From Halolamina sp. CBA1230 (lineage in GTDB: Archaea > Halobacteriota > Halobacteria > Halobacteriales > Haloferacaceae), in contig NZ_CP054589.1 of assembly GCF_002025255.2 (NCBI RefSeq), positions 62,001 to 126,000 on the forward strand: 64,000 nt of DNA, written 5' to 3'. Below, one piece after another: positions 42,150-54,719 of this stretch; the first letter of the stretch is position 1; each line of letters starts with the position of its first letter. The position numbers and the translations under genes were made by a program. The notes beneath the pieces were generated by a model. The model saw only the letters and a program-made list of their open reading frames with translations. It searched no databases and was not told where the DNA came from.

Positions 42150-43916
42150 TCAGAACGGTTGGTTCTCGAGGATGTGTTCCATAATGAGTTGCTCCCGAGC
42201 ATCAACGAATTCCTCAAAGGTCATTTCCTTGGCGCCCTCTGGGATATGGTGAGTCTGCTTGTAGTCGTCCGTTCGGGAGTTCATCCAGTCCTCGAAGTCG
42301 TCATCGGATTTCATCTTGTTCGTCTTGTCAATCAGCAGCTGGAGGTTCCCTACTCGGTCGGCGTCTGCCTCCTCCGGGAGGACCGATTTCGGGATAATGT
42401 GGTCGATATCGTAGTCCTTGCCCCGGGCCGGTTCATCGGGATAGTGCGACAGCTGGAGGAGGAACTCGATGTCGCGTTTGCCGTATTGGAGTTCCTCGAA
42501 CAGCGTGGTCAGCTTTTCTTCGGTGAAACGGAGAGAGGTCCCGTAACTGGACGCCACTTCATCACTGATCCGCTCAAGTGGGAACTCCGAGCTCTCTTCT
42601 TCGCGGATAACGTCCCGGACGAGTTCGGCGATCTGGTTCGATGATTGGCTCGTGAACCCGTTGAGTCGAGCCGCACAGATGTAGTAGAGAATGTCTCGGC
42701 GCCGGCCGCGACCCTTGATGGAAGTCGAATCGAGTGAGGGGTTCTCGTTCTGGTAGAGGTAGTAGGCGATCGGCGTGTAGAGGGCGGGACTGAGGATGTA
42801 GGTCACCGTTGGATAGTAGCTGTTCAGGAGTTCCGCGAGTTGCTCCATCGTGTTCGGGAACGTATCTGAAAGCCAGATCTCCTTTAGATTCCGCAGCAAG
42901 TCAAGTGTGTAGTTGTCGAACCGATACTGGATCTCGTTGCCGTTGATCGCGAGCAGTACCTTCTGGACGTGCTTTGTAGCAAAAGGAGCGTTCCCACCGT
43001 CGATGATCCCGTTCAGTTCGTCGACCATCGAGTGAACCTCGTCACGGGCGTTGATTTCCGGCGGCTCCTGTTGCCAGCTACTGGTCATCAAGGAGAGGAG
43101 GATTTCGGCCCGATTCGGCGTCACACCTCCTTGATTGATCCGAACGAAGACGTCGCGGACACGGGTGATGTCGTTCTCGTCTTCGGTGAAGAAGTGGAGC
43201 TTCTCGTCCTTGTGGACCGCTCGATAGAGGTCCTCGAAATTACGCTGAGCGTTGAGAATCAGACTATCTGAATTCTCTACCTCGGGGTGTTCTCCGATTA
43301 GCTCTTGAATTTCGCTCTCGATCTCTTGGCGTTCTGCATAGAAATCGTCGTTGTCCGAGATGGACATAATCCGGTTGACCGGATACCAATAGGCATTCGC
43401 AGTCGCCGACTGCTCGGATCGGAAGGAGAAATCGTACTTATTGCCGAGTTCCGAGTCCGCTGTCTGCGGGTCCGAGAGGAGGTTGAGATAGAGGCGTTTC
43501 TGGACCCACGAGCTGGCCTTGTTTCGGGGATGATTGTGTTTCCGCTCGTAGAAGGAGCCGGTGAGGCCGATATTGAGCGCGGTTAGCCGCTGCTGGCCGT
43601 CGAGAACCAGCTTTACTGGTGAAGGGAGTGGATCTTCGGAATTGTGCGGGGGGTTGCGATGGGTCGGGGTTGTGAGTGATTGCGGAAAGTTTGGTTCGTC
43701 GACGTAGTGGGTGACGAAGCGATATTTGGGCTGAGCTTGGGCTTCCTCCGCGGAGAGATTCCACTGGAGGAGCGCTCCGATTGGATAGTCTCTCAGGAGT
43801 GAATCGAATAGATCGACGATATCGCTGGTTTCCCAGACGAATTCGCGCTGAATCGCAGGCAAGAGATATGAGTAATTGATATTTTCTACGACCTCAGCGA
43901 TCCGCTTGGTTTCCAT
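42150..43916 (-). CDS. GmrSD-like DUF262/DUF1524 nuclease
   Basis: The gene encodes 588 residues. An N-terminal DUF262 (ParB-like) domain shows FVWETSDIVDLFDSLLRDYP and the signature LVLDGQQRLTALNI (about 110). The C-terminal DUF1524 HNH domain reads KDYDIDHIIPKSVLPEEADA and NLQLLIDKTNKMKSDDDFED. The fused order matches single-chain GmrSD (type IV restriction against glucosylated or otherwise modified cytosine) and BrxU-type enzymes. The NTP-dependent cleavage of modified phage DNA is family knowledge. The gene is convergent with the CoiA-like gene, 6 nt apart. Confidence 0.8.
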   Translation of the reverse strand: METKRIAEVVENINYSYLLPAIQREFVWETSDIVDLFDSLLRDYPIGALLQWNLSAEEAQAQPKYRFVTHYVDEPNFPQSLTTPTHRNPPHNSEDPLPSPVKLVLDGQQRLTALNIGLTGSFYERKHNHPRNKASSWVQKRLYLNLLSDPQTADSELGNKYDFSFRSEQSATANAYWYPVNRIMSISDNDDFYAERQEIESEIQELIGEHPEVENSDSLILNAQRNFEDLYRAVHKDEKLHFFTEDENDITRVRDVFVRINQGGVTPNRAEILLSLMTSSWQQEPPEINARDEVHSMVDELNGIIDGGNAPFATKHVQKVLLAINGNEIQYRFDNYTLDLLRNLKEIWLSDTFPNTMEQLAELLNSYYPTVTYILSPALYTPIAYYLYQNENPSLDSTSIKGRGRRRDILYYICAARLNGFTSQSSNQIAELVRDVIREEESSEFPLERISDEVASSYGTSLRFTEEKLTTLFEELQYGKRDIEFLLQLSHYPDEPARGKDYDIDHIIPKSVLPEEADADRVGNLQLLIDKTNKMKSDDDFEDWMNSRTDDYKQTHHIPEGAKEMTFEEFVDAREQLIMEHILENQPF

Positions 43917-44283: not shown

Positions 44284-44306
44284 TAGTCTAAGTAAAGACT
44301 ATATAA
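44284..44306 (+). promoter_or_regulatory. promoter and operator of the four-gene defence operon
   Basis: The inverted repeat TAGTCT-AAGTAA-AGACTA (44284-44301) runs straight into TATATAA (44300-44306), a TATA box about 30 nt upstream of the ATG at 44335. That fits a leaderless transcript. The repeat overlaps the place where BRE and TATA are bound, so a repressor there, perhaps the AbrB-like first gene product, would block transcription. Confidence 0.6.
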
Positions 44307-44334: not shown

Positions 44335-44526
44335 ATGACTCGAAAGACAATCGCCCGGAATTCAGGCAATTCCGGGCGGGTGAACATCTCGGGTTCTGAG
44401 CTCGATATGCTCGAAGCCGGGATCGGCGACGATGTCGACGTCGACGTTGCCGATACGAAGGAAGTCGCTCACGCTATCATCGACAGCAAGGACACGGATC
44501 AGTTCCTCATCGTCACTCCACTATAA
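44335..44526 (+). CDS. AbrB/SpoVT-like DNA-binding protein
   Basis: The gene encodes 63 residues starting MTRKTIARNSGNSGRVNISG, then SELDMLEAGIGDDVDVDVAD and a C-terminal strand DQFLIVTPL. The swapped-hairpin AbrB fold is suggested by the GRVNIS...AGIGDDV pattern. It stands 3 nt before the large methyltransferase gene, so it is the first gene of the operon and a likely autoregulator. A TTG start at 44317 would add six residues. Similar AbrB-like proteins occur as antitoxins and in front of TnpB genes. Confidence 0.65.
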   Translation: MTRKTIARNSGNSGRVNISGSELDMLEAGIGDDVDVDVADTKEVAHAIIDSKDTDQFLIVTPL

Positions 44527-44529
44527 CGT

Positions 44530-47500
44530 ATGCAAACGGCACTCACCTACCGGACGAATCGCGACCTGTTCTCGAACTACTACCTGGATGAGCACCTCCC
44601 CGAGACCGAGGCGTGGGACGAGCTTAGCGACGACGAACTCCGCGAGGCGAAAGCGGACATCATGGACCTATGGGAGCGCGAAAAGGGCACGGCTCCCAAG
44701 CGTAACGAGTCCCAGCTCGAGGAGAAGTTTATCCGGCCGATGTTCCGGAAGCTGGGCATTCCCTTCGAGGTTGAGGAGAGCACCAGCCGGACCCAACGGC
44801 GGCCCGACTACGGCTTCTTCGAGTCCGAGGACGCTGCACGCGGCGCGTTCGAGCGCCGCGAGGAAGGAGGCGATTTCTACAAGGACGCCGTCGCCGTCGC
44901 GGACGCCAAGCGCTGGGGTCGTCCGCTCGACACCCGTGGGAGTGGGGAACACGAGCGGGACTTCGAGAACCCGAGCTACCAGATTCACGTCTATCTGCAG
45001 GAGACGCCGGCGCGGTGGGCCGTCCTCACTGACGGGAAGAAGTGGCGGCTCTACTACGGCCCGACGAGCCACCGCCTCGACTCCTACTACGAGATCGACT
45101 TGCCGACCGTTCTCGAAAAGGGCGATCTTGAGGATTTCAAATACTTCTACCTCTTCTTCAGGCACGGCGCATTCCTCGAGGACTCCAGCGGCGAGTGCTT
45201 CCTCGACGAAGTCTACGATGAGTCCAACGTCTTCGCCCAGGAGTTGGGAGAAGACCTCCAGGACAACATCTACGAGGCGATCAAGGTGCTCTCGGAGGGA
45301 TTCATGCAGTACCCGGACAACGACCTCTCCGAAGAGGATCTCGACCTCATTCACGACAGTTCGCTCATCTACCTCTACCGGCTCATCTTCGTGCTTTACG
45401 CAGAGAGTGAGGGTCGTGACCTGCTCGACACGAACAACGAGATCTACGAGGAATCCTACAGTCTGAATACACTCAAGCAGGACGTCGCTGAAGAACTCGA
45501 CAGCCCGAATCCGAAGTATCGCGATTGGCAGGACAACCTCTGGGACCGACTGGACGAGCTGTTCAAACTCATCGACCAGGGTAGCAAGTCCCGCGGTATC
45601 CCGGAGGAGGATCTCTACATCCCGGCGTACAACGGCGGGCTGTTCAGAACTGATCCGGACGAGGACGATAGCGTCGAAGCCCGGTTCCTCGCGAACCACC
45701 AGGTCGGGGACGCCTATCTCGCGGAGGTCATCGAACTGCTCACTCGGAGTCAGAACGGCAACGGCGGCGGGAAGATATTTGTCGACTACTCGTCGCTGGA
45801 CGTCCGCCACCTCGGGAGCATCTACGAGGGGCTTCTCGAGTATCAGCTCGACGTCGCCGACGAACCACTCGGGCTGGAGGACGGTGAGTACGTCCCCGCC
45901 GGCGAGGGTGATGAGGTGATCGTTGAGGAGGGCGAGGTCCACCTTACGACTGGCTCTGGCGAGCGGAAATCTACGGGATCGTACTACACGCCGGAATACG
46001 TCGTTGAATATATCGTGGAGGAGACGTTGGAGCCGCTGGTCGAAGACATCAGAGAGGATCTCGCAGGGCAGACTGCACATGGCGAGGGGGGCTTTGCCGA
46101 AGAGTTCGCCGACCGGATCTTCGAACTCAAGATTCTTGATCCGGCAATGGGGAGTGGTCACTTCCTGACAAGTGCGATCGACTATCTTGCCCGTGAAATA
46201 ATCGACGCTCAGGAGAAGCAGGCCGCACAGGAAGGCATCGAGACGGTCGATGAGCAGCGGGACATTAATTGGGCGCGCCGGCAGGTCGCCCAGCGGTGTA
46301 TCTACGGCGTGGATCTGAATCCGCTGGCGGTCGAACTGGCGAAGGTGTCGCTGTGGCTTCGGACACTCGCCGCCGAGCAACCGCTGGCATTCCTCGACCA
46401 CCATCTCAAGACGGGAAACTCGCTGGTTGGCAGCGACATCGAGACGGTCCTTGACAACGGCGACCCCGACAACGGAACTGAAGAAGGTCAGCTAACCCTG
46501 CAAGAATCGTTCGACCGCACGCGCCGGCAGGCCTTAGAGCACGTCACGGACCAGTTCGAGGACCTGCTCGCTATCGACAACGAAACACTAGACGACATCA
46601 AGGAGATGGAGGCCGTCTACGATGAAGTGCGCAAAGATCCGCTGTACCAGCACCTCATCGCTATGGCGAACGTCCACACCGCCGGGCAGTTTGGACTAGA
46701 CGTGCCCGAAGACGCATACGAACGCATGGCCGAGGCCCTTCGGGACGACTCTTGGGCGGACATCGAAGGGCAGGACTGGTACAAGTCGGCGCAGGCGATG
46801 GCCGAGGACCAGCGATTCTTCCATTGGGAACTTGAGTTCCCGATTGCGTTCTATGAGCAGGACGGCGAGCGGAAGGAAGACAGTGGGTTCGATGCAGTAA
46901 TTGGAAATCCACCGTATGTGCGGATGGAAGAATTCAAAGAATTAAAGAACTATCTAAGCCAGGAGTACACGACTCACGCAGCCCGTACTGACCTGTATAT
47001 TTATTTCATCGAGCGGTCAACTTCGGACCTCCTTCGTGAAGACGGGGAATATGGAGCAATTATTTCCAACAAGTTCCTTCGAGCAAACTACGGTGCTTCT
47101 GTCCGCTCGCTGCTTGCGAATGGGACGAACATCCGCGAGATCACGGACTTCGGCGGACTCCCCGTATTCCCAGACGCAACCGTGCGCTCGGCAATCTTGC
47201 TAGCCAGAAATACAGAACCAGATGGGACCCCACCTCGCTATGTTCCCGTTGAGTCTCTCGACTTCGACTCGCTGCCTGCTGAGGTGGAACGATCCGGGTT
47301 TGAGGCGGACCCTGACGGCGTTCAGGGGGAAGAATGGCGATTAGTGAATAGAAAAGTCTCTGATGTAATTGGTAAATTGGAGAGCAAGGGTAAACCTCTA
47401 AAACAAGTCCTCCAAAGTGAGGACATTTGTCGCGGTGTTGTCACTGGTCGTAATGCTGCTTTCTTTATCAACGAGGAGAAACGAGACGAACTAGTCAACC

Positions 47501-48696
47501 AAGATCCGCAGAGTAGGGAGGTGATTAAGCCGATGATCAGAGGAGAGGATATTGGTCAATATCACATTCAGAAGCAAGGCCGTTATATGCTATATATGCC
47601 TCACGGCGTCGATATTGATAGATACCCTGCTGTCGAGGAGCATCTCCGCCAGTACAAGGAGGAACTGGAGGGAAGGGCTACAGAGCAGGCATGGTACGAG
47701 TTGCAGCAGCCTCAAGAGGAGTATGTCGAATATTTTGATGGTCCAAAGATACTTTATCCTGAGATAGCGCCAGAGATGCGATTCGCGTACGATGAGGGTC
47801 CACTCTACCCGAATAATAAGTGCTTCTTCCTGCCGACAGAACGGTTCTCACTGATGGCTCTCCTCAATAGCACCCTGTCTGCCTTCTATCTACGGCAGAT
47901 ACTCGCCAAGTTAGAGGGTGTCTCTGGCGATGATGTCTACTATGAGTTTAGGCGCCAGTACATGAAGCGACTCCCCGTCTGTGAAGGGATAGACGAGGTT
48001 CACGAAGAGACAGGCAAGTCGCTGTCGGAACTGGCTGATAAGATGATGCAACTACGCGACGAGCGACAATCTCTCAATCTCTCGCTCTTGGACTACCTCG
48101 GGATCTCGAGCGGTGACCTGCCGAATTCAAAGGCGGGCGAGTCACTGGAGGGTCTGCAGATGCCAGTTGCGGGCGTCGCGGATACGCCGCTGACCGAAAC
48201 CACAGTGGAGTACGACAGCCTGCGAATCGAGGGCGTATCCTTCAAGGACGATGGCGGGCGTGTGGTGCTGTCGGTAAGCATCAGCTACAAGCCCGACAAG
48301 GACGACCCGCGAGAGACCGACAGCTACGGACGACTCGCCGAGTCAGAGTTCGAGCGCTACGATGCGATGGCCTTTGTCGGCTTCTCGGAGGCCGAGGAGA
48401 CGCTCCTTCGTGAGTTTGTCCCCGTTGCCGTTGAGGAGGGTGGCGGCTTCGCGGGCTTCCGGCAGGGTGCGACTAAGACGAACTCACCGTTAGATCGACT
48501 GAAAAACCTGACGCTCCCTGACTTCGACGAGGTTCAAACTGGGCTGGAGCAGTATATTGAGGTGCGTGAGCGTGCCGACGAGCTGGAGGAGAAAATCGAG
48601 AAGACCAACCAGCTCATCGATAAAATCGTCTACGACCTCTACGGACTGACCGACGAGGAAATCGAAATCGTCGAATCGGCAGTCCAGGATGACTGA
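44530..48696 (+). CDS. nuclease-N6-adenine methyltransferase (type IIG/DrmMI/PglX-like)
   Basis: The gene encodes 1388 residues. The N-terminal part (about 50-180) has RRPDYGFF and VAVADAKRWGRPLD, a possible D...DxK nuclease-like core as in Eco57I-type enzymes. The methyltransferase domain has motif I LDPAMGSGHFL (about 536), a later GVDLNPLAVELAKVSLWL (about 590) and motif IV VIGNPPYVRMEE (about 793), typical of adenine methylases. The remainder (about 820-1250) should hold target recognition and a C-terminal coiled coil (DELEEKIEKTNQLIDKIVYD). Base composition drops within about 46880-47960. Overlap with the helicase gene (8 nt) shows coupling. Confidence 0.85.
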   Translation: MQTALTYRTNRDLFSNYYLDEHLPETEAWDELSDDELREAKADIMDLWEREKGTAPKRNESQLEEKFIRPMFRKLGIPFEVEESTSRTQRRPDYGFFESEDAARGAFERREEGGDFYKDAVAVADAKRWGRPLDTRGSGEHERDFENPSYQIHVYLQETPARWAVLTDGKKWRLYYGPTSHRLDSYYEIDLPTVLEKGDLEDFKYFYLFFRHGAFLEDSSGECFLDEVYDESNVFAQELGEDLQDNIYEAIKVLSEGFMQYPDNDLSEEDLDLIHDSSLIYLYRLIFVLYAESEGRDLLDTNNEIYEESYSLNTLKQDVAEELDSPNPKYRDWQDNLWDRLDELFKLIDQGSKSRGIPEEDLYIPAYNGGLFRTDPDEDDSVEARFLANHQVGDAYLAEVIELLTRSQNGNGGGKIFVDYSSLDVRHLGSIYEGLLEYQLDVADEPLGLEDGEYVPAGEGDEVIVEEGEVHLTTGSGERKSTGSYYTPEYVVEYIVEETLEPLVEDIREDLAGQTAHGEGGFAEEFADRIFELKILDPAMGSGHFLTSAIDYLAREIIDAQEKQAAQEGIETVDEQRDINWARRQVAQRCIYGVDLNPLAVELAKVSLWLRTLAAEQPLAFLDHHLKTGNSLVGSDIETVLDNGDPDNGTEEGQLTLQESFDRTRRQALEHVTDQFEDLLAIDNETLDDIKEMEAVYDEVRKDPLYQHLIAMANVHTAGQFGLDVPEDAYERMAEALRDDSWADIEGQDWYKSAQAMAEDQRFFHWELEFPIAFYEQDGERKEDSGFDAVIGNPPYVRMEEFKELKNYLSQEYTTHAARTDLYIYFIERSTSDLLREDGEYGAIISNKFLRANYGASVRSLLANGTNIREITDFGGLPVFPDATVRSAILLARNTEPDGTPPRYVPVESLDFDSLPAEVERSGFEADPDGVQGEEWRLVNRKVSDVIGKLESKGKPLKQVLQSEDICRGVVTGRNAAFFINEEKRDELVNQDPQSREVIKPMIRGEDIGQYHIQKQGRYMLYMPHGVDIDRYPAVEEHLRQYKEELEGRATEQAWYELQQPQEEYVEYFDGPKILYPEIAPEMRFAYDEGPLYPNNKCFFLPTERFSLMALLNSTLSAFYLRQILAKLEGVSGDDVYYEFRRQYMKRLPVCEGIDEVHEETGKSLSELADKMMQLRDERQSLNLSLLDYLGISSGDLPNSKAGESLEGLQMPVAGVADTPLTETTVEYDSLRIEGVSFKDDGGRVVLSVSISYKPDKDDPRETDSYGRLAESEFERYDAMAFVGFSEAEETLLREFVPVAVEEGGGFAGFRQGATKTNSPLDRLKNLTLPDFDEVQTGLEQYIEVRERADELEEKIEKTNQLIDKIVYDLYGLTDEEIEIVESAVQDD

Positions 48697-51655
48697 CTTC
48701 GAGGTCGGCGACCACGTTAAGTTCGCCGGCGGGCGTGGAGAAATCACAAAAATCGAGGAACGGCCCAACGGCGGCCACCTGCTCCACGTCTACACCTCCG
48801 AGGGGCAGCTCCGCAAACTCCCTAGTGGCCTCCCTCACATCGAGAAACTCGATTCGCTCGTCGACCGCCTCACAGCAGGCCAGTCCGACGCCCCGCTCCA
48901 TTACGACCTTCGAGAGCGGGCGATTCGGCTCGATCTCGCCTACAAGTACGACCGATTCCTCTCGCTGACCAGCAACCGCATCGAGATCGAACCGTACCAG
49001 GTGCAGGCCGCCTACGAGATCCTCAACTCCTACGACCACCGCTACCTCATCGGCGACGAGGTCGGCCTCGGGAAGACCATCGAAGCCGGCATCGTCATCG
49101 AAGAGCTCATCGCTCGCGACCGCGCCGACCGGGTGCTCATCGTCGCGCCGGCGCCGCTGACTATCCAGTGGCAGCAGGAAATGCGCGAGAAGTTCGACCG
49201 CAACTTCGTCATCTACGACCGCGAGACGGTCCGTACACACCGGAAGTCCCACCCCAACCAGAACGTCTGGAAGCAAGAGGACCTCATCATCACCTCCATC
49301 GACTTCGCGAAGCAGACCACCGACGACCCCGAGTCGGACCGCGTCTCTGTCCTTGATGCCCTCCAGAATCTCGACGAGGAGTGGGACGTCGCGGTCTTCG
49401 ACGAGGCTCATCACCTTACGGCCAGACGGTCGAGCGACGACTCAATCGAGCGGACACAGCGGTATCAGGTCGGTGAGGCCGTCGCCGACAACTCCGATGC
49501 GCTGCTGCTGCTCACCGGGACCCCGCACAAGGGGAAATCAGACCAGTTCTACTTCCTCGTGAGCCTGCTCGACCCGTATCGCTTCAGCCACGAGTCGCAG
49601 ATCAGTCCTGAGGCGCTTGAGGACCTGATGATCCGCCGGCTGAAGGACGATATGTACGAGACCGACGGGACCCGAATGTTCCCCGAGAAGAACATCGAGG
49701 CGCTCCCGGTCGAGATGACTCGCGAGGAACGGAAGCTGTACGACGACGTCACCGAGTACATCCGCGAGTACTACAACCTCGCCCAGCAGGAGGAGAACCA
49801 GGCGGCGGGGTTCACGATGGTCATCTACCAGAAGCGGCTGGTCTCGAGTATCTACGCGATCCGGAAGTCCCTCGAAAACCGGATGCGGGCGATTCAGAAC
49901 GACGCCGTCGCAGAAGACCTCCCTGACGAGGTTCAGGACCTCATTCCGCGGTATAGTACCGAACCCGAGACGCTCACCGACGCAGAACGCGCTCGGGTCG
50001 AGGAGGCGCTCGAGACGGTCACGATTACGCTCAACCAGTCGCAAGTCCAGCAGGAACTGGACCGCGTGAAACAGCTCTGGCAGCAGGCCAAGAACATCGA
50101 GACGGACTCGAAGGCCCGATTGCTTCGGCAGTTCGTCGACCGCATACTCTCAGAGGACCCCGACGAGAAAATCCTGATTTTCACCGAGTACACGGACACG
50201 CTGGAGTATCTACGTGACGAGGTCTTCGCTGACCACGACGTCGCCCAGGTGTACGGCGACCTCGAGCAGTCCCGTCGACGGGAAGAGATGAGCAAATTCG
50301 AGGAGGAAGCCAACCTGATGCTCGCGACCGACGCCGCCCAGGAGGGGCTCAACCTCCAGTTCGCCCACATCATGGTGAACTACGACCTCCCGTGGAATCC
50401 CATCCGCATCGACCAGCGGATGGGGCGGCTCCACCGCTACGGCCAGGAGCACACGGTCGAAATTCGGAATCTCTTCTTCGCCGATACCCGCGAGAGCGAG
50501 ATCCTCAACCTGCTCATCGAGAAGACGAACCAGATCGAGTCGGACCTCGGGATGCGCTCTGATGTCCTCGGTCGCGTCCTCGAGGACGTCGACTTGGACG
50601 AGACGATTATGGCGGCCATCGCTGAAGGCGAGCCGACCGAACGTGTCGTCGCCGATATCGAGGCGACCATCGAGGAGAAACGCGAAGCGATTCAGACCGT
50701 CGAAAACGAGTTCCTGATTCGCGACCGCTTCGACCTCTCCGGCGAGGACGATGAGATTCTCGATGTGATCGAACGCAGTCAACACGGCGAGGTGTCGGAG
50801 GACGACATCGAGACGCTTGTGCGAGTGTTCTTCGACGAATTCGGCGGCTCTATCAAAGGTGTTCGACCGGGGCCAGCCCGGATGGAAGGGGACGTGTTCC
50901 AGTTGGATGTCCCTGAGGTCCTGAGTGGAAACCAGGTGGCACGACAGTATCCACGCGCCACGTTCACCAAGGATATCGCGATGGAGGAGGATGATGTCGA
51001 GTTCATCTCGCTTGACCATCCTCTCGTCGAGTCGCTCATCGAATTCTGCCTGGACAGCGACCGCATCCAGGGCGAAATTGCGACGAAGGTCGCTGCGACG
51101 GCGTCTCGAACCCCTGGCATCCTGTTCAATTACCGCCTTGGCTACGTCTCCGGTGCCGGCGACGTGGTGACTGAGAAGTTCGTTCGCCTCTATGCTCGCC
51201 CAGATGGCAGTGTAACGACGGATGTTCCTGAACTCTCGAAGACGGTCGCTCCCAGTGACGTCTCGTTGTCGCACGAGGTTGATCGGCTTTCGAGTATGGC
51301 GGAGGACCTCTACGAGGCTGCAGAGATGGAAGCATGGACGCACGTTGAGTCGTTCGCCGAGGAGGCCCGAACCGAGCGAGAACGGGAGATCGAAATCAAA
51401 CGCGAGCACGCCGAGCGATACTTCGAAGAACAAATCGAAGAGTGGGAAGAGCGGCTAGAGCAGTACCAACAGCGGGCTGAGCAGGGTGCGGATATGTCCG
51501 CGCCGATTGGAAACGCGAAGCAGAAGCTCGAAAGTCTGCGACGAGAGCGTGAAGAAGAGCTGTCCCGGCTTGAGGAAGAGAAGCACGTCACGCCACAGGA
51601 ACCAGACCTTGTGACGGCAGCGTTCGTTGTGTCACCGCCGTCCGGAGGGGACTGA
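48689..51655 (+). CDS. SNF2-family helicase (DrmD-like)
   Basis: The gene encodes 988 residues. A small N-terminal barrel (VGDHVKFAGGRGEITKIEE) is followed by an SNF2 motor: motif I LIGDEVGLGKTIEAG (about 122), motif II FDEAHHL (about 237), motif III LTGTPHKG, and in the second RecA domain ILIFTEYTDTLEYL, TDAAQEGLNLQF and RIDQRMGRLHRYGQ (about 490-590). The last 120 residues form a strongly charged coiled coil. The closest analogue in known systems is DrmD of class 1 DISARM, which pairs with an adenine methylase. Here drmA, drmB and drmC are absent. Confidence 0.85.
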   Translation: MTDFEVGDHVKFAGGRGEITKIEERPNGGHLLHVYTSEGQLRKLPSGLPHIEKLDSLVDRLTAGQSDAPLHYDLRERAIRLDLAYKYDRFLSLTSNRIEIEPYQVQAAYEILNSYDHRYLIGDEVGLGKTIEAGIVIEELIARDRADRVLIVAPAPLTIQWQQEMREKFDRNFVIYDRETVRTHRKSHPNQNVWKQEDLIITSIDFAKQTTDDPESDRVSVLDALQNLDEEWDVAVFDEAHHLTARRSSDDSIERTQRYQVGEAVADNSDALLLLTGTPHKGKSDQFYFLVSLLDPYRFSHESQISPEALEDLMIRRLKDDMYETDGTRMFPEKNIEALPVEMTREERKLYDDVTEYIREYYNLAQQEENQAAGFTMVIYQKRLVSSIYAIRKSLENRMRAIQNDAVAEDLPDEVQDLIPRYSTEPETLTDAERARVEEALETVTITLNQSQVQQELDRVKQLWQQAKNIETDSKARLLRQFVDRILSEDPDEKILIFTEYTDTLEYLRDEVFADHDVAQVYGDLEQSRRREEMSKFEEEANLMLATDAAQEGLNLQFAHIMVNYDLPWNPIRIDQRMGRLHRYGQEHTVEIRNLFFADTRESEILNLLIEKTNQIESDLGMRSDVLGRVLEDVDLDETIMAAIAEGEPTERVVADIEATIEEKREAIQTVENEFLIRDRFDLSGEDDEILDVIERSQHGEVSEDDIETLVRVFFDEFGGSIKGVRPGPARMEGDVFQLDVPEVLSGNQVARQYPRATFTKDIAMEEDDVEFISLDHPLVESLIEFCLDSDRIQGEIATKVAATASRTPGILFNYRLGYVSGAGDVVTEKFVRLYARPDGSVTTDVPELSKTVAPSDVSLSHEVDRLSSMAEDLYEAAEMEAWTHVESFAEEARTEREREIEIKREHAERYFEEQIEEWEERLEQYQQRAEQGADMSAPIGNAKQKLESLRREREEELSRLEEEKHVTPQEPDLVTAAFVVSPPSGGD

Positions 51656-52204
51656 ATGGTCGAGATCGCGAACACCGTTGGCTCGGGCGACGTCGGTGTC
51701 GAACTGGACATTGCGGAAGTCGAGGGAGATCTCCCGGTTCCGTACACTGAATACGATCCCGAGAACTACCACGGTCTCTACGTACGGCTTGTCGAGAATG
51801 GGCCACTCATCACCCTCTACCGGAGCGGCAAGTACATCATCAGCGGCTGTTCCAACTTCGAGGAATTACACGAGACAAACCGTGCGTTCCTGCAGACCCT
51901 CGCCGGGCTGGACATCATCGATTCATCCATCGAGACCGGGTTTACCGTCCAGAACGTCGTCTGTACGGGAGAGTTGCAGCGATCGGTGAACCTCAATGCG
52001 TTGTCGATCGGGCTGGGACTAGAAGCAGTCGAGTACGAACCCGAGCAGTTCCCTGGCCTCATCTATCGGCCGCCGGATTTCCCAGCCGTGCTGTTAGTCT
52101 TCGCGAATGGTAACGTCGTCATCACTGGCGCAGCAGATGTAGAAACTGCAGAGGAGGCATTCAATCACCTTCAGACGAAGGTGGAGAGGCTTCTCGACGA
52201 CTGA
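51656..52204 (+). CDS. tbp: divergent TATA-binding protein in the defence operon
   Basis: The gene encodes 182 residues, the full length of an archaeal TBP with its two direct repeats: residues 1-90 (VEIANTVGSGDVGVELDIAE ... YRSGKYIISG) and 91-182 (TVQNVVCTGELQRSVNLNAL, EPEQFPGLIYR, VITGAADVETAEEA). The second repeat is close to normal haloarchaeal TBPs. In the first repeat the usual FPG and LLF positions read YHG and TLY, so two of the DNA-kinking phenylalanines are tyrosines. The ATG directly follows the helicase stop, so it is cotranslated with that gene. Plasmid TBPs are known in haloarchaea; one in a restriction-like operon is unusual. Confidence 0.88.
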   Translation: MVEIANTVGSGDVGVELDIAEVEGDLPVPYTEYDPENYHGLYVRLVENGPLITLYRSGKYIISGCSNFEELHETNRAFLQTLAGLDIIDSSIETGFTVQNVVCTGELQRSVNLNALSIGLGLEAVEYEPEQFPGLIYRPPDFPAVLLVFANGNVVITGAADVETAEEAFNHLQTKVERLLDD

Positions 52205-52301: not shown

Positions 52302-54719
52302 TCAATCAGCGAGAATCGACCGAGTGATCCCGGCGAGATTCGGAGCTTCTAACGATGACCCACAGACGCACTCGTACATCTCTGTGTCATCCTCTCCATC
52401 GGAGATGCGAGTGTAGAGCGCCCCACAGGAGCACTGTGGGAGTTCGGTTACCCCATCGGCGCCGGAACTCGGCATATCCGCGTCACCCTGCCGGACGAGT
52501 TTCACTCGCGAGGGATCCACGTCGACGCCCTCCGCATACGCCCGTTGTGCATCATCACGGATGGTGAACGCGATGCCCGTCCTCGGATCTGTGGCTGCCT
52601 CCTCAGCTGCGTCGGAACTTCCCTGTGCCATCGTAACGACGGCCGCCGATTCGCCACTCCAGTGGTCGAGCGCGAAGGCCACGATATCCCGCGCTCGTGC
52701 ATCCAGCGCGTCGACGTCCCAGCCCGCTGCCGGAGCTGGAAGGTCATCACCAAGGATCTCCATCTGCGCGTCTTGGTAGATCTCCTCGTACTTCGTCGCA
52801 TAATCGTCGTTCGACGCTGACGGATTATCCTTCGGCCCGAGGAGCGCGAGATTCCCCAGCCGATTCACGTTCTCCTCGTGATTTTCAAGCTCCGCAACGC
52901 TGGTCTCCGGCGTTCGCGGCGCGATGTGCTCGATCGTAAACTCGTCGAGGTCCATCACGCTGGGGAGCATTTTCAGCGACGTATCCGTGTTCTTCTCCTG
53001 GCGAAGGTGCTTCTCGTACTCGAACAACAGAAACCGGATCGCACCCTTGTTGCAGAAGCCCGGCCACCCGCGCGTGTCGCTCCCCTGGATGATGTCCGAC
53101 CGCGTCAGGTACTCGACGAAGTCGTTGTCGGGGCAGTGCCGGCCGATGTAATTGTCGAGATACGCCGTCACCTCGTCGACGGCGACAGCTGGGTTCTCGT
53201 AGGGCGGGTCAACGACCGCTTCACCGAACAGGTCCTCGACGAAGCCGTCCTCGAACTCGGAGGCGTAGAGCCGGTGCGCTGCCTCCTTGAACTCGCGGCG
53301 TGCGGTCCGTTGCGATCGTTTGGCGACCTGGTAGACGCGAAACGAATAGACCTCACAGAGCGTAGCAATCCGCGCGAACTCCGGGCTGTCAGCATCGTAT
53401 CGCTCGATGGCTGCGATGATGAGCGGCGCGATATTGGAGAAGTTGATGTTGTGGAGGGACTTGACGCGAGCCTGAACCTGGGGCGAGACGTCGGTTTGCC
53501 GGTTGAAGACGTCGAGATAATTCGCTTGGACGTAAGATTTGGAGACGCTCGAGAGCGTGTCGACGTAGTTGTTGACCCACGTCGCGACCTCTTCTGGATC
53601 TCGTTCGAGGGGAATATGCCGGGGTGATTCCTTGATACGTCGGTGGATTGGCGTCGGGCCAGATCGGTTCTTGCGGACCTTCTTGTACTCTCCCGTAAAG
53701 AGCTCCCAGTGGAACTGAACTAGCTGGTCGATGTCGTCATCGTCGGTGGCGTACTGGGCGACCGTTTCGACGGCGTCGTTGAATCGGCGGGCGACTGCTT
53801 CTGAGTCCAACGTGTCGAATTCGCCGGAGACGTAGATCAGGTACGATTTGACCTTGTCGGCAAGGGTGATATCCCGCCCTCGGTCGTTGACAGCCTCGAA
53901 GAGCCGACCTGCCTCGTCCGTACTCTCGACCTCTTGGGAGGTGAGTTTGAATTGGGAGGTGAGAACACCCGTATACCGCTTGATGGCCGTATAGTATTCG
54001 AGGAGATCCGCTTCCGTAGCCTGCCCCAGGTCTTCATCACCGAGGAAGAGTTCCCGCTTCTCACGGATCCACTTCTGGATGATCACTTTCGCTCTGGCCA
54101 GCTTCTTCTCCGGGACAAGCCGCTCGTCATCGCCAAGGATCGTCTGTGGATCACCCTGGTCGATGATGAGTTCAGCATACGCTGCTTCAGTGAGTTCCCC
54201 GGGCTCAAGATGGCGGCCCTCCTTCCGGTCGCCAAGCTTGAGATAGTTCTCCGTGTAATTCGTGGCAAGATAGCCAGGAGCGCGAACGACACCTTCCGGG
54301 AGATCCTCCTTGCCGAGCCCCGCAGCATCGAATGCATCCGCGATCGCCTCGATCTCCTCCACGATGCAGGCGATGAAGACGTTGGTCGTCGTGAGCCGCT
54401 GTTGCCCGTCAATTATGTCGTAAACTGTCCACTCCGACCCCATCATGTCCTGCTTGCCTCTCGCGTTGAGAACCAACGTCCCGAAGTAGTGGTAGACGTC
54501 TGAATTCCCGTTCGTGTCGTTGCTGTCCGCATCAGATGAGGCAGTAGTCACGCTACGAGCGTTCGGAGAGCCGTAGCGCCGGCGATAGACGTAGTCAATA
54601 TCGTTCAGGAGGTCCTCGACCTGCTGCGGTTCCCAAGCGTAGCTTCGCTGATAGAGTGGGACTTGTAATTTTGCGTCCGAGAAGACCTGTGAGACTGTTT
54701 TTTGATCCGCCTTCGGCAT
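52302..54719 (-). CDS. large GmrSD-like DUF262/DUF1524 protein with zinc ribbon
   Basis: The gene encodes 805 residues. DUF262 at the N-terminus: VPLYQRSYAWEPQQVEDLLN (about 20) and IIDGQQRLTTTNVF (about 105). The DUF1524 HNH-type motif is at about 585-640: EFTIEHIAPRTPETSVAELE and NRLGNLALLGPKDN. A C-terminal extension ends in a zinc ribbon (CSCGALYTRI ... CVCGSSLE). Without the extension the length matches single-chain GmrSD. The ribbon may bind a partner or modified DNA. It flanks the central operon on the side opposite the other DUF262 protein. Confidence 0.8.
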   Translation of the reverse strand: MPKADQKTVSQVFSDAKLQVPLYQRSYAWEPQQVEDLLNDIDYVYRRRYGSPNARSVTTASSDADSNDTNGNSDVYHYFGTLVLNARGKQDMMGSEWTVYDIIDGQQRLTTTNVFIACIVEEIEAIADAFDAAGLGKEDLPEGVVRAPGYLATNYTENYLKLGDRKEGRHLEPGELTEAAYAELIIDQGDPQTILGDDERLVPEKKLARAKVIIQKWIREKRELFLGDEDLGQATEADLLEYYTAIKRYTGVLTSQFKLTSQEVESTDEAGRLFEAVNDRGRDITLADKVKSYLIYVSGEFDTLDSEAVARRFNDAVETVAQYATDDDDIDQLVQFHWELFTGEYKKVRKNRSGPTPIHRRIKESPRHIPLERDPEEVATWVNNYVDTLSSVSKSYVQANYLDVFNRQTDVSPQVQARVKSLHNINFSNIAPLIIAAIERYDADSPEFARIATLCEVYSFRVYQVAKRSQRTARREFKEAAHRLYASEFEDGFVEDLFGEAVVDPPYENPAVAVDEVTAYLDNYIGRHCPDNDFVEYLTRSDIIQGSDTRGWPGFCNKGAIRFLLFEYEKHLRQEKNTDTSLKMLPSVMDLDEFTIEHIAPRTPETSVAELENHEENVNRLGNLALLGPKDNPSASNDDYATKYEEIYQDAQMEILGDDLPAPAAGWDVDALDARARDIVAFALDHWSGESAAVVTMAQGSSDAAEEAATDPRTGIAFTIRDDAQRAYAEGVDVDPSRVKLVRQGDADMPSSGADGVTELPQCSCGALYTRISDGEDDTEMYECVCGSSLEAPNLAGITRSILAD

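Follow-up and report, generated by a model that had tools for sequence, protein, structure and literature searches.

The TBP gene and its operon

The window (the whole 64,000-nucleotide stretch of DNA that was analysed) contains an operon in which the genes follow in the order small ORF, Eco57I-like methyltransferase, BrxHII/DrmD-like helicase and TATA-binding protein (TBP). The features are listed in Table 1. The methyltransferase overlaps the helicase by 8 nt, and the last base of the helicase abuts the start codon of the TBP. No Pfam match was obtained for the window copy of the 63-residue first ORF, and its relatives give only sub-threshold matches to MazE/SymE, so that an AbrB/MazE-like identity is tentative. 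The adjacent helicase and methyltransferase resemble the pair of BrxHII-like helicase and PglX-like methyltransferase found in ARMADA, DISARM class I and BREX. The YprA-like (DrmA-like) helicase of ARMADA and DISARM class I is absent from the window operon genes, PglZ and BrxC of BREX are absent among those annotated, and the window pair stays below every NCBIfam equivalog cut-off for ARMADA, DISARM or BREX modules. Both flanking GmrSD-like genes are 98–99% identical to genes in the islands of other genomes (L033–L035 and L037), indicating, at the level of sequence identity, a recent transfer of the island.

Table 1 Features of the TBP operon and its flanks in the window.
Feature	Position	Strand	Remarks
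Flanking GmrSD-like defence gene	42150..43916	-	HEC-05
Putative core-promoter element AGTCTAAGTAAAGACTATA	44285..44303	+	Inverted AGTCT/AGACT arms; conservation across operons
Small conserved first ORF	44335..44526	+	63 aa
Eco57I/TaqI_C-type N6-adenine DNA methyltransferase	44530..48696	+	1388 aa; DrmMI / type IIG-like models
SNF2/RapA-type helicase	48689..51655	+	988 aa; PADLOC models BrxHII (best), DrmD and HmaA
TBP paralogue P0001, TbpC-type, YYFF	51656..52204	+	182 aa; last operon gene; NCBIfam NF001593 above cut-off
Tyr38 codon (yeast F99 position, first repeat)	51767..51769	+	Translation and alignment
Thr53-Leu54-Tyr55 codons (L114T and F116Y positions, first repeat)	51812..51820	+	Translation and alignment
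Stirrup EYEPEQFPG of the second repeat (contact surface for TFB, with Phe132)	52031..52057	+	Alignment
Phe149 codon (yeast F207 position)	52100..52102	+	Translation and alignment
Flanking GmrSD-like defence gene	52302..54719	-	HEC-06 / Orf5

The protein (P0001) matches the Pfam TBP family (PF00352) with an E-value of 5.8e-40 in two stretches that correspond to the two TBP repeats. AlphaFold2 predicts an intact TBP saddle for it (mean pLDDT 91.4), and comparison with solved TBPs gave Z scores of about 20 (19–20), including 1mp9 and 1ais, the latter being the archaeal TBP–TFB–DNA complex. Alignment with yeast TBP placed Y38, Y55, F132 and F149 at the positions of the intercalating phenylalanines F99, F116, F190 and F207, respectively. 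The original prediction had read YHG and TLY in the first repeat and FPG and LVF in the second, and translation and the yeast alignment confirmed these readings. Since the first pair of the four intercalating phenylalanines is Tyr/Tyr, P0001 is a divergent TBP paralogue and not a canonical TBP. The same genome has two ordinary TBPs, 40% identical to P0001, on its 2.9-Mb contig, and the P0001 locus is on a 253-kb contig.

Conservation of the remodelled first repeat

Homologues were searched for in 391 haloarchaeal genomes. Among the matches listed, at least 18 further places encode proteins with 63–95% identity to P0001, followed by a broad tier at approximately 42–55% and the ordinary TBPs near 40%. 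Designated by the residues at the four intercalating positions, the collected set consists of 76 FFFF TBPs, 68 YYFF TBPs and a remainder with other combinations. In the de-duplicated YYFF TBPs, F99Y and F116Y are present in 62 of 62 proteins, accompanied by L114T (61/62) and V122I (59/62), while all 47 de-duplicated ordinary TBPs have Phe at both first-repeat positions. The alignment thus directly displays a joint change of four contact positions in the first repeat. The second repeat keeps N159, V161, F190, L205 and F207 unchanged in 62 of 62 YYFF TBPs. The identity between YYFF and ordinary TBPs is uneven, 31% in the first repeat and 50–52% in the second. The His residue of YHG is common to the 21 members of the closest clade (≥60% identity); in the wider clade YPG predominates.

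The stirrup of TBP contacts TFB, as established for TBP–TFIIB/TFB complexes. Its sequence, EYEPEQFPG, is found in 62/62 YYFF and 47/47 ordinary TBPs of the de-duplicated sets, and the YYFF proteins would therefore be expected to bind TFB. The Nei–Gojobori dN/dS ratio is 0.12 between P0001 and its nearest relative, with medians of 0.12 for the altered TBPs and 0.085 for the ordinary ones. Judged by this ratio of about 0.12, the altered TBPs are under purifying selection. The joint contact changes, the invariant second-repeat contacts, the low dN/dS and the predicted saddle together indicate that one repeat was rebuilt under selection and the TFB-facing repeat was kept. With the base-contact set of the first repeat remodelled and the second repeat and TFB stirrup untouched, a one-sided effect on the binding site, as the original prediction had proposed, is plausible.

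The closest described proteins are the TbpC-like TBPs (NF001593; PMC4230888), with which P0001 shares the YYFF pattern, the absence of the N-terminal Phe pair and the methyltransferase–helicase–TBP operon. Plasmid pNRC100 of Halobacterium carries several TBPs, and the only YYFF protein found is encoded at 111987–112532. It is 67% identical to P0001, lies behind the same helicase and keeps both repeats; the two proteins fall in a shared 11-row clade with support of 100/98. By the description in PMC4230888 it corresponds to TbpC, an identification that rests on the absent first Phe pair because the pNRC100 record has no gene name. The missing N-terminal Phe pair of TbpC-like proteins was already noted by Becker et al. 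(2014), who explained it either by non-function or by a role of a very specialised kind (PMC4230888). The present analysis adds the Tyr/Tyr/Thr pattern, the evidence of purifying selection and a systematic association with methylation-based defence.

A degenerate, non-functional TBP without DNA binding by its first repeat, one of these two readings, agrees with the loss of the Phe pair and with the laboratory record of Halobacterium: the NRC-1 tbpC knockout, which was not profiled, showed no apparent phenotype (PMC2121645), and the absence of a tbpC transcript is cited for PHH1 (PMC4230888). Nevertheless, it is hardly credible as an account of the family. The whole clade has Tyr/Tyr together with co-varying Thr and Ile, the dN/dS is low and the predicted fold is intact, so that conservation largely refutes degeneration. 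Our analysis favours a very specialised role of TbpC over non-function. In addition, the methyltransferase gene of the NRC-1 tbpC operon is split by ISH27-2 (L193:3484-9062), and its counterpart on pHS4 of strain R1 is a single intact gene of 4185 bp.

Linkage to DNA-modification systems and exchange among them

A TBP was scored as linked when a gene for a methyltransferase, HsdR, HsdS, PglZ, BrxC or a BrxHII-like helicase lay within 4 kb. This was the case for 67 of the 68 YYFF TBPs but for only 2 of the 76 FFFF TBPs; after clustering at 80% identity the numbers were 38/38 and 1/20, respectively (p = 2e-14). The median gap between a YYFF TBP and the defence gene is 9 bp. Because the loci were sampled by TBP similarity and not by neighbourhood, the linkage is not a product of how they were selected. 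The FFFF controls are mostly chromosomal, and four that are located on smaller replicons resembling plasmids (L083, L145, L189 and L190) likewise have no defence link within 4 kb. Of 82 TBPs with no detected defence gene within this distance, 74 are FFFF and a single one is Tyr/Tyr, the only unlinked YYFF protein, which sits on a 3-kb contig. Hence, the tyrosines are not common in ordinary TBPs, which have Phe at the four positions, so that the refuting condition set by the original prediction does not hold, and they are shared by the operon-linked copies in a large Tyr/Tyr clade. The sequence data support the view that selection has fixed the tyrosines in the operon-linked TBPs.

The partners of the YYFF TBPs are diverse, and the linkage is directly observed across several kinds of system and in viruses. 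They include a type I HsdM–HsdS–HsdR system (L066), BREX with BrxC and PglZ (L052, and L061 by profile), type IIG-like enzymes (L053, L067 and L074) and a type IIG enzyme together with an LmuB-like SMC protein (L071). Among the closest relatives in the matches listed, 17 of 18 lie directly 3' of the same helicase, one of these 17 (L040) as a broken copy. Conversely, the linked HsdM subfamily (≥59% identity) has a listed TBP within about 6 kb in at least 10 of 20 places, and the remoter HsdM places have none within about 6 kb among the TBP matches listed. Other non-FFFF TBPs that were unlinked in the first pass adjoin N6_N4 methylases (L168 and L181), a NotI-like endonuclease (L179) or DUF1156 and DUF499 genes (L187); no such neighbour was found for L180. 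In the tailed Halorubrum virus HRTV-9 (L195:2235-6531), a gap of 16 bp separates a type IIG gene from the YYFF TBP that comes after it. The TBP of Haloarcula virus HJTV-2 is more divergent and lies close to genes for an N4C methylase and an Eco29kI-type endonuclease. No account of this linkage was found in the literature on TBPs with restriction–modification, BREX or defence islands in haloarchaea, covered mostly outside subscription journals.

Two further arrangements were observed. The TBPs at L181:6521-7354(-) and L164:4177-5001(+), near DNA-modification genes, have an extra N-terminal segment predicted with moderate confidence as helix-helix-helix-strand-strand and winged-helix-like. In five loci a second divergent TBP lies between the methyltransferase and the helicase (L033:9721-10266(-), L037:10015-10560(-), L041:9591-10148(-), L042:2821-3369(+) and L050:9962-10492(+)); in L041 and L042 it is FFSP, with the first-repeat Phe pair kept and the second pair lost, the mirror image of P0001.

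In a tree of 98 rows, a single clade (100/99) holds all FFFF TBPs. The FFFF state changes once on this tree, as against 28 changes in the kind of neighbouring system (mean of shuffled assignments, 58.5; minimum possible, 6). The comparison indicates that the TBP stays with defence as a class and moves among its kinds. An instance of exchange is L064, where the helicase is 90% identical to that of the window but the slot of the TBP is occupied by a 53%-identical protein from a clade whose other members mostly lie beside type I systems. Chance travel of a dispensable TBP paralogue in mobile defence islands would fit the frequent location on secondary replicons or islands, the flanking GmrSD genes that move with some copies and the facultative presence of the TBP, as operons without it exist (L220–L222). 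We regard such hitch-hiking as very improbable, because the sampled plasmid-borne FFFF paralogues lack such neighbours, the gene contacts are as tight as a stop/start overlap or a few base pairs, the TBP of L064 was replaced in the same slot, and the near-complete linkage persists through the changes of neighbour type.

The recurrent adjacency to several kinds of methyltransferase, often on the same strand directly after the helicase, HsdR or methyltransferase, also raises the idea of a DNA-binding or DNA-bending subunit of a defence complex, which would recognise targets or load the helicase or methyltransferase and have no part in transcription. TBP domains have been reported in the bacterial conflict systems TOTE and TALON, the latter being largely from Chloroflexota with TPR-CSD fusions and effectors (PMC12458937). 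These systems likewise place a TBP in a defence locus, but the haloarchaeal one is a complete archaeal TBP, TFB stirrup included, in a methyltransferase/restriction–modification context. The invariant stirrup is hard to account for without TFB and disfavours the non-transcription role that the original prediction had left open. Moreover, one TBP clade serves enzymes as unrelated as type I, type IIG and BREX (with the more divergent TBP beside the N4C methylase and Eco29kI-type enzyme of HJTV-2), so that no common protein partner is evident, and many related systems have no TBP. A subunit role is therefore unlikely.

The promoter element and the proposed role of the altered TBP

The region at 44284–44306 had been proposed as the TBP's own promoter. 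Its core, AGTCTAAGTAAAGACTATA, is nearly invariant in 13 distinct operons with differing flanks. With at most one mismatch it occurs once each in 20 of the 391 genomes (reversed control, 0), and its exact sequence occurs nowhere else in the host genome. The proposed promoter is thus conserved, with the small ORF and not the TBP as its constant partner. The small ORF and the methyltransferase lie 3' of the element in 20/20 genomes, including operons with neither helicase nor TBP (L220 and L221) or with the helicase but no TBP (L222), and the element is unchanged in L064 despite the swap of the TBP. We therefore rejected it as the private site of the TBP. It is better read as the core promoter of the operon or an operator of the small protein. 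In its simplest form the dedicated-promoter idea is thereby lost, although the TBP may still act there. A shared motif was also sought by eye in the intergenic regions of loci where TBP and hsd genes diverge; each subclade has its own TATA-like stretch and nothing defensible is shared.

We consider P0001 most likely to be a general transcription factor dedicated to restriction that still recruits TFB, and put the probability of this reading at about 0.5. As a full two-repeat archaeal TBP, it would bind TFB through its unchanged second repeat, and the remodelled first repeat (Y38, T53, Y55 and I61 in place of F, L, F and V) would read the downstream half-site. The YYFF TBP would be an accessory, optional module of methylation-based defence of the type I, type IIG, BREX and methyltransferase–helicase kinds, with an altered site preference and control over the defence genes. 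It probably adjusts the timing of their transcription, similar to bacterial controller (C) proteins, or it may sustain this transcription if the housekeeping TBP is disturbed by a virus. A role as a transcription factor is supported by the two loci in which the TBP has a predicted winged-helix-like N-terminal segment. Against it stand the behaviour of the promoter element, which follows the small ORF and survives the TBP swap; the defence systems without a TBP, for which it must be dispensable; the last position of the gene in the window operon, an odd place for an early regulator; and the NRC-1 knockout without apparent phenotype, though the operon methyltransferase is interrupted in that strain.

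An antiviral effector or back-up, which would compete for TFB, occupy viral promoters or replace a housekeeping TBP disabled by a virus, draws on part of the same evidence. The TFB surface is kept and the DNA surface changed, the operon promoter is independent of the type of TBP, and some operons contain a second, differently altered TBP (L033, L037, L041, L042 and L050). The specificity of the linkage for DNA-modification systems speaks against it, and the presence of the same cassettes in viruses would be odd for an antiviral weapon; we judge it quite unlikely.

The C proteins of bacterial type II systems are small helix-turn-helix activators encoded with restriction–modification genes. The restriction-dedicated TBP would be comparable in adjoining such genes and possibly timing their expression, but it is a paralogue of a general transcription factor and also accompanies type I, type IIG, BREX and helicase systems. 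Eukaryotic TBP-related factors are likewise TBP paralogues with altered DNA contacts that serve a subset of promoters. They belong to another lineage, while the haloarchaeal paralogue is distinguished by its mobility and its attachment to defence loci. As a tentative extension, the family may be a mobile regulatory module, swapped among restriction, BREX and viral cassettes, in which the second repeat recruits TFB and the first defines a separate class of promoters.

The multiple TBP and TFB paralogues of haloarchaea are usually explained as stress-response rewiring. Our results indicate instead that a large divergent class of haloarchaeal TBPs is part of the DNA-modification systems directed against viruses and is transferred together with them, even to viruses. 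They also offer a testable role for TbpC, a protein of a model organism without an assigned function, and suggest an archaeal counterpart of the restriction controller proteins, made from a basal transcription factor.
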